Shown here: positions 4,662 to 14,542 of the stretch, piece by piece
How positions within the stretch are numbered: position 1 is the first letter of the stretch
How the letters are laid out: each line of letters opens with the position of its first letter
DNA from: Methylibium sp.
Lineage (GTDB): Bacteria; Pseudomonadota; Gammaproteobacteria; Burkholderiales; Burkholderiaceae_C
Assembly (NCBI GenBank): GCA_013824165.1
Contig: PNNH01000067.1
Span: 62,001 to 126,000 of the forward strand
Length of the DNA stretch: 64,000 bases
Direction of reading: 5' to 3'
The notes under the pieces: model-generated
Seen by the model: only the letters and a program-made list of their open reading frames with translations
The model's database searches: none
Told to the model about the DNA's origin: nothing
Made by a program: the position numbers and the translations under genes

Positions 4662-5365
4662 GCAATCAAGGCAACCCGGGTACCGAGGGCATCACCGAGC
4701 AGGACATTGCCGACTTCCTGCTCAACAACCCGAGCTTCTTCGAGCGCCATGCCGAGCTGCTGGCCAATGTGCAGCTGAGCCATCCGCACAACCAGCGCAC
4801 CGTGTCGCTGCAGGAGCGCCAGGCCGAGATGCTGCGCGAGAAAATCAAGGGACTGGAGTTCAAGATCATCGAGATGATCCGCAACGGCCAGGAGAACGTG
4901 GCCATCGCCGACCGCCTGCACCGCTGGACCCTGGCGCTGATGCTGACGCAGGATGCCGCCGCCGTGCCCGAGGTGCTGACGCGCGAGCTGCGCCACCAGT
5001 TCATGATCCCGGCCGCCGGCTTGCGCCTGTGGGGCGTGGGCGAGGCGCATGCGCAAGCCGATTTCGCGCAGGCCTGTAGCGCCGATGTGCGCAGCTTTGC
5101 CGGCAGCCTGTCGCAGCCCTATTGCGGCGTGAACTCGGGCTTCGAAGCGGCCAACTGGTTGGGCGGCGATCAGGACATGGCCTCGCTGGCGCTGATACCG
5201 CTCAAGCATCTCGGCAGCAGCTTCGGCCTGCTGGTGCTGGGCTCGCCGGACCCGACGCGCTACACCGCCGAGATGGGCACCGAGTTCCTGGCCCGCATCG
5301 GCGAGATCGCCAGCGCCGGCCTGGCGCGGCTGCTGCCGGGCGCAGGCGATGGCGCTGGTGCCTGA
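4658..5365 (+). CDS. DUF484 family protein (GAF-like)
   Basis: A 235-aa protein with the DUF484 hallmark N terminus ([34 protein letters not shown]), then a coiled region and a GAF-like domain. Function is unknown. The family lies between dapF and xerC in many proteobacteria, as it does here. GTG start, translationally coupled to dapF through a GTGA overlap. Its 3' end overlaps the xerC start by 17 bp. Confidence 0.92.
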
Positions 5366-6275
5366 GGGCGATCTCGCCCGCTACCTGGACTATCTGCGCG
5401 TGCAGCGCCGTCTGGCCGCGCGCACGCTGACGCTCTATACCGATGCACTGCTGCGCCTGCAGCAGCTGGCCGAGCGCGATGGCGTGGCGTTGCGCCAGCT
5501 GCAGGCCGCCCAGGCGCGCCGCTGGCTGGCGGCCACGCACGGCGAAGGCCTGGGGCCGCGCACGCTGGCGCTGCTGCTGTCTGCCTGGCGCGGCTTCTAT
5601 CAATGGCTGGGCCGCGAAGGCCTGGTGACGCAGAACCCGATCGCCGGCTTGCGCGCGCCCAAGGCGGCCAAGCCGCTGCCCAAAGCCCTGTCGGCTGATG
5701 ACGCGGTGCAGCTGGCTGATTTCAAGGACGACAGCGGCGACGCCCGCATCGAGGCGCGCGACCGCTGCATGGTCGAGCTGCTCTACGGCTGCGGCCTGCG
5801 GGTGGCCGAGCTGGTGGGCCTGGACGCGCAGTCCAGTGGCACGGCGCGCGGCTGGGTCGATCTGCCATCGGCCGAGGCCCAGGTGCTGGGCAAGGGCGGC
5901 AAGCGCCGCAGCGTGCCGGTGGGCTCGGCGGCACTGGCGGCGCTGCAGGCCTGGCTGGCGCTGCGGCGCGAGCTGGCGCAGGCCGACGAGCCGGCGCTAT
6001 TCGTCGGCGCGCGCGGCGCGCGCATCTCGGATGGGCAAGTGCGCGTGGCGCTGAAGCAGCGCGCGTTGCGGGCCGGCATGCCCAGCCATGTGCATCCGCA
6101 CATGCTGCGCCATTCCTTTGCCTCGCACCTGCTGCAATCCAGCGGCGACCTGCGCGGCGTGCAGGAGTTGCTGGGCCATGCGCATATCGCGACCACGCAG
6201 GTCTATACGAAGCTGGACTACCAGCATCTCGCCAAGGTCTACGACGCGGCCCATCCACGCGCCAAGAAGAAATAA
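5349..6275 (+). CDS. xerC: Tyrosine recombinase XerC
   Basis: Site-specific recombinase that, with XerD, resolves chromosome dimers at dif. Length is 308 aa. The SAM-like core-binding domain fills the first about 100 residues (YLDYLRVQRRLAARTLTLYTD). The catalytic residues are visible: Arg in YGCGLRVAELVGL, Lys in GKGGKRRSVPV, His/Arg in HPHMLRHSFASHLL, His in LGHAHIATTQ and nucleophile Tyr in VYTKLD. The context (after dapF and DUF484) is the standard chromosomal xerC locus, so this is not a phage integrase. Confidence 0.95.
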   Translation: MALVPEGDLARYLDYLRVQRRLAARTLTLYTDALLRLQQLAERDGVALRQLQAAQARRWLAATHGEGLGPRTLALLLSAWRGFYQWLGREGLVTQNPIAGLRAPKAAKPLPKALSADDAVQLADFKDDSGDARIEARDRCMVELLYGCGLRVAELVGLDAQSSGTARGWVDLPSAEAQVLGKGGKRRSVPVGSAALAALQAWLALRRELAQADEPALFVGARGARISDGQVRVALKQRALRAGMPSHVHPHMLRHSFASHLLQSSGDLRGVQELLGHAHIATTQVYTKLDYQHLAKVYDAAHPRAKKK

Positions 6276-9819: not shown

Positions 9820-11691
9820 ATGTGTGGCATCGTCGGCGCCGTCAGTCAGCGCAACATCGTTCCGGTTCTGATCGAAGGCCTGAAGCGCCTGGAATACCGT
9901 GGCTATGACTCTTGCGGCGTGGCAGTGCACCAGGGCGGCGAACTCAAGCGTGCGCGCAGCACCTCGCGCGTGGCCGAACTCGACGCCTTGTCTGCCGAAG
10001 ACGGCATTGCCTCCGGCACTGGCATTGCACACACGCGCTGGGCCACGCATGGCGTGCCGGCGGTGCACAACGCCCACCCGCATTTTTCGCATGGCCCGAA
10101 TGCCGCTGCAGCCACGGCCGGCCGCATTGCGCTGGTGCACAACGGCATCATCGAGAACCACGACGAACTGCGCGCCGAGCTGAAAGGCCGCGGCTACGAA
10201 TTCCTCAGCCAGACCGACACCGAGGTGATCGCCCATCTGGTGGATCACCACTACCACGGCGACCTGCTGGAAGCCGTGCAGCAGGCGCTGACCCGCCTGC
10301 GCGGTGCCTATGCCATCGCGGTGTTCTGCCGCGACGAGCCGCACCGTGTGATCGGTGCACGCGAAGGCTCGCCGCTGGTGCTGGGCGTGGGCACCGACCC
10401 GGCGCAGGGTGAGCACTTCCTAGCCTCGGACGCGATGGCGCTGGCCGGCGTCACCGATCAGATCGTCTATCTGGAAGAGGGCGATGTGGTTGACCTGCAG
10501 CTGGGCCGTTACTGGATCAGCCAGCTCGATGCCGAAAGCGGCCGCTACCTGCCCGCTGAGCGCCAGGTGCGCACGGTGCACGCGCACAGCGGGGCTGCCG
10601 AACTGGGCCCGTATCGCCACTACATGCAGAAGGAAATCTTCGAGCAGCCCACGGCGATTGCCAACACGCTGGAGTCCATCACCAGCATCAGCCCCGAGCT
10701 GTTCGGCGACGGCGCCTTCCGCATCTTCAAGGAAGTGGATTCGGTGCTGATCCTGGCCTGCGGCACCAGCTACTACGCCGGCTCAACCGCCAAATATTGG
10801 CTGGAGAGCATCGCCAAGATCCCCACCAGCGTGGAGATCGCCAGCGAATACCGCTACCGCGACAGCGTGCCTAACCCGCGCACCCTGGTCGTCACCATCA
10901 GCCAGAGCGGCGAGACGGCCGACACGCTGGCGGCCCTCAAGCATGCGCGCAGCCTGGGCATGCTGCACACGCTGACGGTGTGCAATGTCTCCACCAGCGC
11001 GATGGTGCGCGAATGCGAGCTGGCCTACATCACCCGCGCCGGTGCCGAAATCGGCGTGGCCTCCACCAAGGCCTTCACGACCCAGCTGGTGGGCCTGTTT
11101 CTGCTGACACTGGCGCTGGCGCAAACTCGCGGCCATCTCAGCGAAGCGCAGGAGCATGAGCACCTGAAGGCGCTGCGCCACCTGCCGGTGGCCGTGCAGG
11201 CCGTGCTGGCGCTGGAGCCGCAGGTGATCGCCTGGAGCGAAGAGTTCGCCCGCAAGGAAAATGCGCTGTTCCTTGGCCGCGGCTTGCACTACCCGATTGC
11301 GCTGGAAGGCGCATTGAAGCTCAAGGAAATCTCCTACATCCACGCCGAGGCCTACCCGGCCGGCGAGTTGAAGCACGGCCCGTTGGCGCTGGTGACCGCC
11401 GAAATGCCGGTGGTGACGGTGGCGCCCAACGACGCGCTGCTGGAAAAGCTCAAGAGCAATATGCAGGAAGTGCGCGCCCGCGGCGGCCAGCTCTACGTGT
11501 TTGCCGACGGCGACACCAAGATCGAAAGCGAGCCCGGCCTGCACGTGATCCGCATGCCCGAGCACTACGGTGCCCTGAGTCCCATCCTGCACACCGTGCC
11601 GCTGCAACTGCTGGCCTATCACACCGCCTGCGCGCGCGGCACGGATGTGGATAAGCCCAGAAACTTGGCCAAATCCGTGACGGTCGAATGA
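9820..11691 (+). CDS. glmS: Glutamine-fructose-6-phosphate aminotransferase
   Basis: Makes glucosamine-6-phosphate for cell-wall and LPS sugars. Length is 623 aa. The N-terminal glutaminase begins MCGIVGAV, with Cys2 as nucleophile after Met removal. Two SIS domains follow ([63 protein letters not shown]). The C terminus [13 protein letters not shown] is the conserved TnsD/Tn7 target in many bacteria. GGGAGA lies 7 nt before the ATG. The gene is intact, but its terminator region has been invaded by a mobile element starting 17 nt after the stop. Confidence 0.97.
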
Positions 11692-11707
11692 CCGTCGTAG
11701 ATTGCTG

Positions 11708-11753
11708 TGACTCGAACAAATAAGGTCAGTCGGGGAAAAACAAAGTTGGTCGA
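11708..11753. repeat. Left terminal repeat and second end motif of the glmS-linked element
   Basis: The terminal repeat covers 11708-11733. A second, weaker copy of the core lies at 11740-11753 (ACAAAGTTGGTCGA against ATAAAGTCCGTCGG in the right end). Orientation is opposite to the copies at the right end, as expected for transposon termini. The 158 bp from 11754 to 11911 shows no gene. Confidence 0.55.
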
Positions 11754-11911
11754 AGGTTCGCCAGTTGCTGCTTCGAGGTTGATTCGATCCAGTCTGCGTG
11801 TTCAGGAGGATTCGTGCGACTGGACGTTTTCAACCAGACGTGCATCCGGACCGACGGTTAAGCAGCGGTTGCGTTCCTTCGCTTTGCCGAACTCGACGCC
11901 TGAAAGCGGTC

Positions 11912-12038
11912 GCTCAACGTAAAGCTGAGCCGACCGCTGAGGCAGGCTGTGGCTGGCCGCGGGGACAACGAGCGAAGCTCGCTTGGAGCTGCCCGCAGCG
12001 GCATGCCGGAGCGGGTCGCCTCGCGCGCAAGGTTAGGC
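11912..12038 (-). other. attC-like recombination site (integron cassette), 127 bp
   Basis: Read on the minus strand, the site begins GCCTAAC (matches R'' RYYYAAC) 1 nt after the stop codon of the DUF6624 gene and ends CGTTGAGC (matches R' GTTRRRY). Inner arms GAGGCGACCC and GGTCGGCTC are nearly complementary (L''/L'). The middle folds into further stems ending in a CGAGC-GAA-GCTCG tip on the plus strand. Position after a gene stop, box sequences and arm pairing all fit an attC in the gene's direction. No integrase gene is in the window. Confidence 0.6.
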
Positions 12039-12039
12039 C

Positions 12040-12699
12040 TCATTCCGCGGTGCGCGCTGAGCACTCGGCGGGCAGAGACGTCCGCATGCGCGACAAGTAC
12101 TCGTCCAGTGTTGGCAGGCCAACCGCCTTACGCCTAGCTTCGACCCTCTCGCGATCGTCCAGCAGGGCAAAACCGGTAACGCACCGGCCCGAGGCGGTGA
12201 ACTGGGTTCCGTAGAGTTGTGGCCTGCCTTCTGCGACGGAAAGTCGATCACTCAGATACGCCAAGTTGCTGCCGGTCACCTCACCTTGAGACACCAGATC
12301 CTCAAGGATTCCAAGTACCCTTTTCTGAAATGGCCGATCATGGTCGGCATGCTGTGCTAGGAGCCATGCATGGTGGCTTGCCTCTGCGCCATATCGGCTC
12401 CTCCTTGGCCAACCGCAAGACTCAATGTACGCGTTCAGTCGTTTTGTGTTCGTGGTGTCCACTACGTTCCCGAAACGAAGGATTCTCGGAACTTCTGAAG
12501 CTGGGGTACTGGGCGTGTTGCGCGGTGCTGTCATTAGGTATCGGCGCCACGCCTGATCAACGGACACCATGGTCTTAAGGTCTGTGGCGTAAGACGCGCA
12601 TACTGAGGCGGGCGCGGCCGGTACATCTGGCTTCGATTCAGCTCGCCCGATCAGCAGGCCGAGCGCCAGGGCTGCGAAGAGGTGGATGCGTCTGCTCAT
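12040..12699 (-). CDS. DUF6624 domain protein with signal peptide (cassette gene)
   Basis: A 219-aa predicted exported protein: MSRRIHLFAALALGLLIGRAES is a signal peptide. The mature part carries the DUF6624 pattern: NTKRLNAYIESCGWP, HAWLLAQHADHD.PFQ, NLAYLSDRLSVAEGRPQLYGTQ and RRKAVGLPTLDEY. No activity has been established for the family as far as I know. The start codon lies 5 nt after the putative upstream attC box, and the stop is 1 nt before the downstream attC, so gene and attC form a compact cassette of about 0.8 kb. The gene runs against glmS. Promoter and export are inferred. Confidence 0.75.
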   Translation of the reverse strand: MSRRIHLFAALALGLLIGRAESKPDVPAAPASVCASYATDLKTMVSVDQAWRRYLMTAPRNTPSTPASEVPRILRFGNVVDTTNTKRLNAYIESCGWPRRSRYGAEASHHAWLLAQHADHDRPFQKRVLGILEDLVSQGEVTGSNLAYLSDRLSVAEGRPQLYGTQFTASGRCVTGFALLDDRERVEARRKAVGLPTLDEYLSRMRTSLPAECSARTAE

Positions 12700-12703
12700 G
12701 AGG

Positions 12704-12787
12704 CCTCAACGGATAGCGTCTATCTGTCGAGCGCCAGCGCAACGGATGCGCGCCGCGGTATGCCGAGGCAGATAAACCGTGTTGAAC
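12704..12787 (-). other. Second attC-like site upstream of the DUF6624 gene, 84 bp
   Basis: On the minus strand it runs from GTTCAAC (R'' match) to CGTTGAGG (R', one mismatch at the last base). Inner arms TATCTG and CAGATA pair. A GC-rich apex (GGCGCGC / GCGCTGGCGC) lies between. It would be the attC of the preceding cassette or a remnant attI. It is weaker than the 11912-12038 site because of the imperfect R' box and short arms. Confidence 0.4.
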
Positions 12788-13110
12788 AGAACCATCGCAC
12801 CGTCCCTGGCCACGCTGGCCTTTGTGGTTTGCGGTCTTGGGGGATTGGATCGACCCGAGCCGCTATTTCAGCTGATTATGTGGCCGCGCATGCGGGCGTG
12901 AAGCCCATGCTTTCTCAGTGGGCAGTTGCTGCGGGTGCAGCCGCGCCTTGCGTCTCGAGGCGCTGAGGCTGGCTTCCTGCACTGCCTCCCGGTCTTGTGC
13001 CCGCTGGCGCAGGGCAGTCATGAACTAGGCCCGGAACACACGGCTGCCAAGTGCAAGCAGGCGGCGGGCCGACCGGCTACGCGCACCATGCTGCAGTCCG
13101 CGCCGGCGTG
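12788..13110. other. Non-coding cargo stretch inside the element
   Basis: I see no gene I can support. The open frames here lack ribosome-binding sites, recognisable domains and consistent codon bias. The stretch lies between the upstream attC-like site and the right end of the element and may be the remnant of a lost cassette. Confidence 0.4.
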
Positions 13111-13249
13111 TCCGACGGACTTCATTTGTAGCCCTGTCGTGAAGATCGCCAAACCCAGGATCCCCGACGGACTTTCAAGCATTTCGCGCTTGTCAACGAA
13201 TCAACGACTTACCGACGCCGTTTCCGACGGACTTTATTTGTTGGAGTCA
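13111..13249. repeat. Right end of the element: three direct end motifs
   Basis: Three direct copies share the core CCGACGGACTT: TCCGACGGACTTCATTTGT at 13111, CCGACGGACTTTCAAGC at 13164, and TCCGACGGACTTTATTTGTT at 13223. They are spaced about 52 and 60 bp apart. The outermost copy continues to GGAGTCA at 13249 and is the inverted partner of the left end. Repeated transposase-binding sites at an end are typical of Tn7-like elements. Confidence 0.55.
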
Positions 13250-13268
13250 GCTGGCGCGAAGCGCCAGC
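13250..13268 (+). terminator. Original glmS terminator hairpin, separated from glmS by the insertion
   Basis: GCTGGCGC-GAA-GCGCCAGC forms an 8-bp stem with a 3-nt loop. Removing the 11708-13249 insertion and one GCTG rejoins glmS TGA, 12 nt, and this hairpin. The element therefore appears to have landed inside the glmS terminator stem, as Tn7 does. No U-tract follows. Confidence 0.5.
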
Positions 13269-13334
13269 GCCTCAGGCGTGCCAAGTGACTGGGCTTGGAC
13301 GCCGCTCATTTGCCGCAAGCAAGTGAGGCGGCGG

Positions 13335-13400
13335 CACAAACCGAGATACCTCGCGAAGTCGGTCACTGTTGAGTGAGCGACTTGGGCGCGGAGCGCCAAG
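13335..13400 (+). pseudogene. glmS: Second, diverged copy of the glmS 3' end plus hairpin
   Basis: Codons 13335-13376 read [13 protein letters not shown]-stop, against [13 protein letters not shown]-stop at the real glmS end. Most nucleotide differences fall at third codon positions, so this tail evolved as coding sequence in some other glmS. It is followed after 4 nt by its own hairpin (CTTGGGCGC-GGA-GCGCCAAG, 13381-13400). No upstream glmS sequence accompanies it. Confidence 0.6.
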
Positions 13401-13416
13401 CGGCGCAGACGCGCGA

Positions 13417-13473
13417 GGCTCTCGGATTAGCGCCTACTCACATCGCTTTAGCGATGTGAAGGCGCGAAGAGCC
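13417..13473. repeat. 57-nt imperfect stem-loop between the two glmS-tail copies
   Basis: Three nested arm pairs, GGCTCT/AGAGCC, GCGCCT/AGGCGC and TCACATCGC/GCGATGTGA, close on a TTTA loop. Two small bulges interrupt the stem. It could be a transcription terminator or a recombination hairpin. Confidence 0.5.
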
Positions 13474-13483
13474 GTGTAGGCAC

Positions 13484-13525
13484 CACAAGCTTTGCAATTT
13501 GGCCCAATCCGTTACTGTCAAGTGA
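13484..13525 (+). pseudogene. glmS: Third copy of the glmS 3' end
   Basis: The frame reads HKLCNLAQSVTVK-stop, aligned to [13 protein letters not shown]-stop of glmS. It is more decayed at the protein level than the 13335 copy, but NLA-SVTV is kept. Like the other copies it is followed by GCG and a GCGC-GAA-GCGC hairpin (near 13543-13553). The stop codons of the second and third copies are 149 bp apart. Confidence 0.5.
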
Positions 13526-13589
13526 GCGTCGCCGATTTGTGGCGCGAAGCGCAAGCGGTGCAGGCGCGCCAGCCGGAACCACAAGCCCG

Positions 13590-13721
13590 GTAGGTTGGAG
13601 TGAGCCCGCGAGCTCCAACGATCGTCGGCCGCCTATGGAGCTGGATGTGGCGGCCTTCATTGGCGCACGAATGCCGAGGCCTAGCTTTGCGTTGGAGTTC
13701 GCTGGGCTCACTCCAACCTAC
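13590..13721. repeat. Palindromic repeat copy A (132 bp)
   Basis: Outer arms GTAGGTTGGAGTGAGCCC (13590-13607) and GGGCTCACTCCAACCTAC (13704-13721) are perfectly complementary. Inner arms CGAGCTCCAACG / CGTTGGAGTTCG and a GGCCGCC/GGCGGCC pair continue the fold. It is similar in direct orientation to copy B at 14412. It ends 3 bp before the stop codon of the universal stress protein gene. It looks like a MITE or REP-type element. Confidence 0.75.
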
Positions 13722-13724
13722 GGG

Positions 13725-14321: not shown

Positions 14322-14411
14322 TCTGGCGCCCCTCAATGCCTCAAACAACTCGAATATGGTTCGGTGATTGTTCGAAAAAACGGATGCCTCGATCAAACGA
14401 TCCTGAGCAAG

Positions 14412-14542
14412 GTAGGTTGGAGTGAGCTTGGGAACTCCAACGATCTTTGGCCGGCTTTTTGGGCTGGATGCACTGAGTCTTTTTCTAGCCAATGTCTGCG
14501 CCTGGCCTTGCGTTTGGTTTCGGGGGGCTCACTCCGACCTAC
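14412..14542. repeat. Palindromic repeat copy B (131 bp)
   Basis: Begins GTAGGTTGGAGTGAGC and ends GCTCACTCCGACCTAC, the arms pairing with one mismatch. The interior aligns with copy A in direct orientation (shared CTCCAACGATC, GGCTGGATG, GCCT-GCTTTGCGTT) but is more diverged. The 90 bp from 14322 to 14411 and the 30 bp after the repeat hold no gene. Confidence 0.75.

Follow-up and report, generated by a model that had tools for sequence, protein, structure and literature searches.

Behind glmS in a stretch of 64,000 nucleotides from Methylibium sp. (contig PNNH01000067.1, positions 62,001 to 126,000; this whole stretch is referred to as the window), the end of the gene recurs twice. We interpret this region as two stacked gene-tail units, the first of which was later split by a Tn7-like mini-element, and we propose that such units arrive by recombination and displace the old gene end, a reading to which we assign a probability of about one half. 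The direct observations on which it is built are the anatomy of the unit, its conserved helices, a coding mark on the orphan tails, the pairing of an inverted arm with the tail of its own unit, the presence of units at two host genes, glmS and metK, and one imported proximal metK tail.

Three glmS tails and the anatomy of the unit

The sequence-only reading of this DNA had proposed three copies of the glmS 3' end in a row, two of them orphan and each followed by a small hairpin. The three tails are indeed real, with the orphans beginning one base further to the right than it had them, and a GC hairpin lies 3' of every tail, although that of the true glmS is separated from its gene by the transposon and is found at 13250-13268. 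The parts of the two units are as follows.

9820-11691, + strand: glmS coding sequence (CDS), with SIS and glutamine amidotransferase domains; the last 41 bases (11651-11691) are tail 1
11651-11691, + strand: tail 1, the true glmS end and left portion of unit 1 (from the letters)
11651-11707, + strand: left part of unit 1, consisting of tail 1 and the 16 bases after the stop; the end of the tail pairs with bases after the stop in a 7-bp stem (GACGGTC / GACCGTC) whose loop contains the stop (letters, fold of the joined flanks)
13250-13268, + strand: side hairpin of unit 1, separated from glmS by the mini-element (fold, including that of the joined flanks)
13289-13297, + strand: X', the inverted arm of unit 1 (CTGGGCTTG); it is the complement of the beginning of the glmS tail (pairing, fold of the joined flanks)
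13299-13335, + strand: distal stem-loop of unit 1 (fold; aligned with the stem-loops of genomes G006, G014, G173 and G001)
13336-13376, + strand: tail 2, the first orphan glmS end, which opens unit 2 (letters, codon comparison, presence in congener G001)
13377-13484, + strand: rest of unit 2, with hairpins, an arm at 13419-13429 and a stem-loop at 13430-13465 (fold, pairing)
13485-13525, + strand: tail 3, the second orphan glmS end (KLCNLAQSVTVK*) (letters, codon comparison)

A consensus of 36 bases, derived from tails 1 and 2 and searched with up to 3 mismatches, had two sites in the window, namely these tails, and none in 100 shuffles. When a degenerate codon pattern was searched without mismatches in the 4.7 Mb of the organism's own genome, the three matches were the three tails (backward control, 0); the same pattern with 2 mismatches gave 4 places in the genome and equally 4 in the backward control, so that this run is uninformative. 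Between tail 2 and the glmS tail there are 12 nucleotide differences, which amount to 10 synonymous codons and 1 non-synonymous codon, and we thus agree with the sequence-only reading that tail 2 bears the mark of coding constraint. Tail 3 differs from the glmS tail at 10 nucleotides (3 synonymous and 4 non-synonymous codons).

Read from the gene outward, a unit opens with X (the last codons of the gene, from a lysine) and the stop. The complement of the latter half of the tail comes next, then a side hairpin and the arm X', which is complementary to the beginning of X. These are followed by GGGGCGGA or a variant of it, by a stem-loop that ends in CCA or GCA and by GNAGACCA or a variant of it, after which comes Y, the next tail. 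The unit starts about 12-13 codons ahead of the gene stop. The length was 111-115 bp at all 12 metK loci and about 138-156 bp for the glmS units of the window, of G006 and of locus L266, which gives an overall range of about 110-156 bp.

The units are strongly folded. Unit 2 (13338-13485) folds at -83 kcal/mol with a z score of -7.2, and z scores between -6.8 and -7.2 were obtained for four units, all of the cloverleaf type; this set comprises the units taken in frame, a fifth sequence in the wrong frame (z -3.1) having been excluded. Across three helices of 12 metK units, 11 of the 28 pairs had changed on both sides, a value that was reached in 0 of 500 shuffles and approached by no slid version of the alignment. 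At L266 the helix between X and X' extends over 17 bp without a mismatch. Since the core-based metK set was picked by the letters of the stem-loop, the conservation of those letters partly reflects sample selection.

Occurrence of units behind glmS and metK

Second glmS tails were also found in G006, G001 and G325; those of G014 and G173 are degenerate, and the one in G173 lies past a Tn7-like island of about 26 kb. A search with the DNA of the G006 unit led to G111, where metK is followed first by the same stem-loop and then by another metK end. Of the 399 genomes of the family, 9 matched the core pattern, two of them (G013, G026) within unrelated sequence, and a collection of 84,980 genomes yielded 23 matching stretches. 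Read singly, 12 of these stretches lie behind metK (11 loci) and 5 behind glmS, while 1 lies in a partial tRNA-Ser copy, 4 are Comamonas stretches without a gene tail and 1 is chance-like. The names of 19 of the 23 records are those of genera that we take to be Burkholderiales; the other four are titled Vitreoscilla, Betaproteobacteria, Proteobacteria and Gammaproteobacteria, the last being the chance-like one. Stacks of metK ends comprise six in a row in an Acidovorax metagenome-assembled genome (L138) and three in Ottowia (L149).

In a glmS sample spread over the family, units were found at 6 of 69 loci with a tail (G000, G006, G014, G100, G096 and G144). The sample comprised 70 loci read out of the 130 that matched; one of the 70 (L257) had no recognisable tail, and G000 and G014 were already known beforehand. 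Not counted as units were L211, L222 and L250, which have the helix but no second tail, and L230, which has a poor second tail and no helix. Helices with X that reached 9 bp or more were present at 6 of 69 glmS loci, three of them without a second tail and therefore uncounted, compared to 0 of 69 shuffled controls. Behind metK, units were recognisable by eye at 8 of 30 loci (G174, G017, G011, G031, G022, G026, G035 and G068), a proportion that is no rate, because the 30 loci had been ranked by a unit-bearing query. The metK gene of the window's own genome has no unit, whereas that of the congener G001 has one. Among 3191 open reading frame (ORF) ends in 698 kb, which were enriched for metK and glmS loci, 31 matches to tail copies were obtained, and those that represent gene tails belong to metK and glmS only; the remaining ones are, judged by eye, tandem, antisense or chance repeats.

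Three further observations concern the core and the host genes. At L124 (G090) and L130, the same stem-loop core forms a 58 bp insert in the anticodon loop of a partial tRNA-Ser copy, which it splits; an intact tRNA-Ser gene follows a short way downstream. The Comamonas copies (L132, L134, L140 and L142) are intergenic, have no gene tail and stand behind a long palindrome. In the window, xerC (5349-6275; G000:C5:60896-61235) lies between metK, which is just left of the window, and glmS, i.e. between the two unit hosts.

Probable former gene ends and the proposed direction of their replacement

The stop is in register in all 26 orphan tails compared. Relative to the own tail of the gene, glmS orphans show 57 synonymous and 7 non-synonymous codon differences (random expectation, 83% non-synonymous) and metK orphans show 55 and 29 (random expectation, 76%); the comparison left out four orphans with decay or truncation, those of G014 (L143), L136, L150 and G173, and thus favours intact tails. 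The five orphans of L138 encode KA[AQ]ALRAAAGL*. Judged from these codons, the orphans look like former working gene ends.

The arm X' forms more Watson-Crick pairs with the tail of its own unit than with the neighbouring orphan at 20 of 21 loci, and at 17 loci versus 2 with 2 ties if G-U pairs are counted, some loci being partly non-independent (G000/G001, L136/L151). For unit 1 of the window, X' forms 10 Watson-Crick pairs with its own tail and 9 with tail 2. The arm of unit 2 forms 6 with tail 2 compared to 3 with tail 3, or 7 compared to 9 with G-U pairs included. The second unit of L138 has an arm (ATCGGTCTTC) that can pair with GAAGACCGAT, codons that would have preceded its own tail at the time when this tail was adjacent to the gene, and this fits a newest-first order of stacking.

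In the mechanism that we favour, a unit would carry a working gene 3' end, a complementary sequence after the stop that folds with a side hairpin into the cloverleaf, and a stem-loop. An incoming unit would supply the gene with a new 3' end and shift the previous end downstream as an orphan tail, and repeated arrivals would build a stack in which the newest unit probably stands next to the gene. The units would most likely come with DNA of other strains or species through recombination between genomes, for which the gene body would provide the homology on the left and the duplicated tail, with the orphan as a putative homology arm, that on the right. Template switching may keep the arms matched and account for tandem copies such as L141 and L266. 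For the host, the units presumably bring no benefit. Spread by recombination covers the coding orphans, their order, the pairing with the own tail and the divergent tract of G001 described below. As a tentative extension, which we regard as possible rather than likely, the units could be mobile cassettes of about 110-156 bp without a protein, which home to the last dozen codons of metK or glmS and carry a gene end on the left and an attC-like site on the right, their newest-first arrays recording former gene ends.

The direction of the replacement was addressed at metK of G001. Compared to its congener G000, the gene differs at 21 of 570 nucleotides and then at 12 of 60 nucleotides around the left edge of the unit (p 1.4e-5), while within the same 60 nucleotides there is a single difference from the unit-bearing Rubrivivax locus L144. 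From the near-identity to L144 and the divergence from G000 we conclude that the proximal tail and about 22 nucleotides before it came from elsewhere. In G001, the metK orphan (AAGGCGGCCGCG) is similar to the tail that is resident in G000 (AAGGCGGCTGCG). At glmS, the region of G325 is 95.8% identical to that of its congener G022 over 313 nucleotides, and in the first 18 nucleotides the own tail shows six differences from G022 and the orphan one. In these alignments the proximal tail is the foreign one, a direction that is settled for G001 and indicated for G325. The sequence-only reading had assumed that tail 2 evolved in another glmS and was brought in. Coding constraint and the exchange of gene ends between genomes at metK speak for this idea, but the orphan does not seem to be the foreign part, as in the sole resolved case it is the proximal tail.

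Several observations weigh against arrival by recombination. Only one import is resolved, and its right end does not coincide with the orphan: about 1.27 kb of extra DNA separates metK from the shared flank, which resumes 110 nucleotides past the stop in G000 and 1378 nucleotides past the stop in G001. In a comparison with 63 unit-free glmS tails, which had not been selected by their tails, own tails and orphans were about equally close in both directions, and over 11 metK loci no jump in identity was seen at the left edge of the unit. The arm of L150 fits the orphan better than its own tail, the orphans of L217 and L248 are partly decayed, and L141 and L266 resemble plain tandem copies. Finally, the shared core behind two unrelated genes and the origin of the first unit are outside the reach of homologous recombination. 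Comparisons of tail origin at metK gave a mixed picture, in which no locus apart from G001 had a clear direction. An earlier comparison of glmS tails was dropped as evidence, because its reference tails had been selected by a serine-codon pattern or by their likeness to the orphans.

An integron-like reaction would cover the first origin, the common core at two genes and the geometry of the unit. In this case, stem-loop and arms would form an attC-like folded single-strand site, and a circular unit would recombine with the GACAARGCC-type sequence of the gene, always at the front and by means of a tyrosine recombinase acting in trans; the gene end would be carried by the unit so that the gene survives. 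The arm matches the left end of its own unit, as it should if only the circle contains the complete site, the right edge is fixed with insertion at the front, and the succession of stem, 5-nt unpaired spacers, stem and variable tip resembles parts of attC sites (PMC2727003). An integron integrase above the cut-off was found in 16 of the 30 genomes searched. However, the unit has no RYYYAAC/GTTRRRY cores, unlike the attC sites of the Ottowia integron in G170, and the integrase does not clearly track the units, being above the cut-off in 11 of the 17 genomes with units and in 5 of the 13 without (p 0.27). In addition, the import in G001 begins inside the gene rather than at the unit edge, and no circular form was seen. 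We consider such a reaction unlikely.

It is likewise improbable in our view that the units arose locally, by a fold-back copy of the gene end that created the inverted arm, followed by unequal exchange that created the copies and template switching that matched the arms, so that the orphans would be earlier ends of the same lineage. The order of tail, inverted tail and tail, the tracking of the own gene by the arms, the exact tandem units of L141 and the near-copies of L266 are in line with this scenario, and template switching has been reported to create and mend hairpins (PMC8794818). Orphans that decay freely should, however, differ mostly by non-synonymous changes, which is not what we observed, and neither the foreign tail in G001 nor the occurrence of the same core behind two genes in several genera is expected from a local origin.

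The sequence-only reading had explained the tails by repeated integration of large islands at the glmS attachment site, with the tails left as att scars. Displaced gene fragments do mark islands at tRNA genes (PMC4383910), and Tn7-like elements do occur behind glmS in this family, so that integrase-borne or Tn7-like islands could have left such traces. We rejected this explanation, which is very improbable, because similar units of near-constant length and without genes or other cargo occur behind metK and because in the congener G001 glmS is followed by tail 2 with no island between them; moreover, the sole island-like element of the window is the Tn7-like mini-element, a separate insertion inside unit 1. 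A useful RNA structure at the transcript end, acting in stability or termination with the copies as a by-product, would be in line with a strong fold with covariation at the ends of two housekeeping genes, but it is hardly credible given that only 6 of the 69 glmS genes read and not even metK of the window's genome have a unit, and it leaves the orphan tails unexplained. For intron-like splicing, the units seem too short.

Known systems and the Tn7-like mini-element

The units fail defining features of integron cassettes, of integrase-bearing islands and of repetitive extragenic palindromic (REP) elements. An arm complementary to the own start is a defining feature of cassettes, and in the units the arm is indeed complementary to the own start rather than to the next unit (20 of 21 loci, Watson-Crick pairs). 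With integron cassettes and attC sites (PMC2727003, PMC3053210), the units further share a folded site at one end and an array that apparently grows at the front, but they differ by the lack of the RYYYAAC/GTTRRRY cores, of attI and of an adjacent integrase, and by a front site that is the end of a protein gene. As in the gene-restoring islands at the ends of tRNA and other genes (Islander, PMC4383910), the gene receives a restored end from the incoming DNA and its former end is displaced, which is reflected in the 26 orphans compared and in the import of one pair; in contrast to these islands, there is no integrase or cargo between the ends (metK units of 111-115 bp at 12 of 12 loci), and the unit is only about 110-156 bp long, strongly folded, stacked and hosted by metK and glmS. 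REPs, which are described as 20-40 bp long and high in copy number, are small palindromic repeats behind genes as well (PMC3733652), whereas coding codons are part of the unit, which is linked to gene tails. Nor was a high dispersed copy number found, since a search of the organism's own genome with the unit region returned only the region itself and one 37-bp partial match. As a separate observation, inverted repeats occur in the window as pairs (GTAGGTTGGAGTGAGC..), of which there are two copies (13584-13724 and 14406-14542) that have diverged and lie about 820 bp apart; they resemble pairs of REPs or bacterial interspersed mosaic elements (BIMEs). Rickettsia palindromic elements, which add a peptide inside genes, resemble the units as palindromic elements that become part of protein genes, but in the units an equivalent end replaces the old one.

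In Rfam, no unit from eight loci and the window region matched above the gathering score. The best match was that of L138 (1122-1351), which has weak similarity to MH_s15, a Mesorhizobium RNA (38.1 bits compared to a cut-off of 123, E 3.5e-6). No description of such units was found in the open-access literature, subscription journals being mostly outside the coverage of this search. We group the units as a variant form among the small mobile repeats of palindromic type and see a smaller chance that they represent a new class. Their presence behind two housekeeping genes suggests a tiny, apparently undescribed element whose spread replaces gene ends. If units spread by swapping gene ends, they would be very small hitch-hikers that need no gene of their own and would illustrate a harmless route for an element into an essential gene. 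The stacks would then be fossils of former gene ends, which makes the movement of palindromic repeats directly testable, and the strong fold over the last metK and glmS codons would also constrain the choice of codons there.

The insert that separates tail 1 from the rest of unit 1 has the following features, none of which except the ORF is assigned to a strand.

11704-11707: GCTG abutting the left end of the mini-element, a possible target-site duplication (partner at 13250-13253)
11708-13249: the mini-element itself, Tn7-like, non-autonomous, 1542 bp long and inserted within unit 1 (inverted repeats, ends of relatives, absence in G001)
11912-12038: attC-like palindrome beside the DUF6624 stop (core and inverse core match 5 of 7 bases, fold of -60.9 kcal/mol, own heuristic)
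12040-12699, - strand: ORF with DUF6624 (PF20329, E 3.8e-19), the only gene recognised in the mini-element, the remaining ORFs of the element being outside the domain scan
13101-13129: extra copy of the end motif within the right end of the mini-element (86% identical to 13213-13241)

A repeat search identified its 26-nt inverted repeats (11708-11733 and 13224-13249; 88% identity), of which the left one begins 16 bases 3' of the glmS stop. The two edges share the 4 bases GCTG; the target-site duplication of Tn7 has 5 bases. Ends of the window type were found behind glmS in G029 and G160 and around tnsD/tniQ genes in G016, and the longest ORF of the element is that of the DUF6624 protein (219 aa), with no tns genes of its own in an element whose other ORFs lie outside the domain scan; TniQ genes are present elsewhere in the genome. 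Therefore, we refer to it as a non-autonomous Tn7-like element rather than as a full transposon. In G016, the stretch flanked by such ends, which encodes TnsD and TniQ, contains three more long ORFs without a Pfam match. Tn7-like elements behind glmS (PMC10293859) account for the 1.54 kb insert at 11708-13249, but not for the tails or the metK units.

The congener G001 lacks the mini-element and has tail 2 at 112 bp behind its glmS tail, but it is not a clean empty site, because it also lacks the side hairpin and tail 3. When the mini-element and one GCTG were removed from unit 1, the joined flanks folded as a cloverleaf (-82.6 kcal/mol), and the mini-element therefore seems, on the basis of this predicted fold, to have landed within a pre-existing unit.

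The DUF6624 ORF together with the attC-like palindrome (11912-12699) suggests an integron cassette as cargo of the mini-element. About 240 bp upstream of DUF6624 (12693-12936) recur with 75-81% identity in the organism's own genome (C3, C10 and C56) and with 75-82% in G001 and G014. The island of about 26 kb in G173 (C1:764112-791960; L106, L099 and L078) is Tn7-like, lies between glmS and the orphan tail and contains TniQ genes and an integron integrase. At L255 (G160), two different Tn7-like ends, one of them of the window type, stand in tandem immediately behind glmS.

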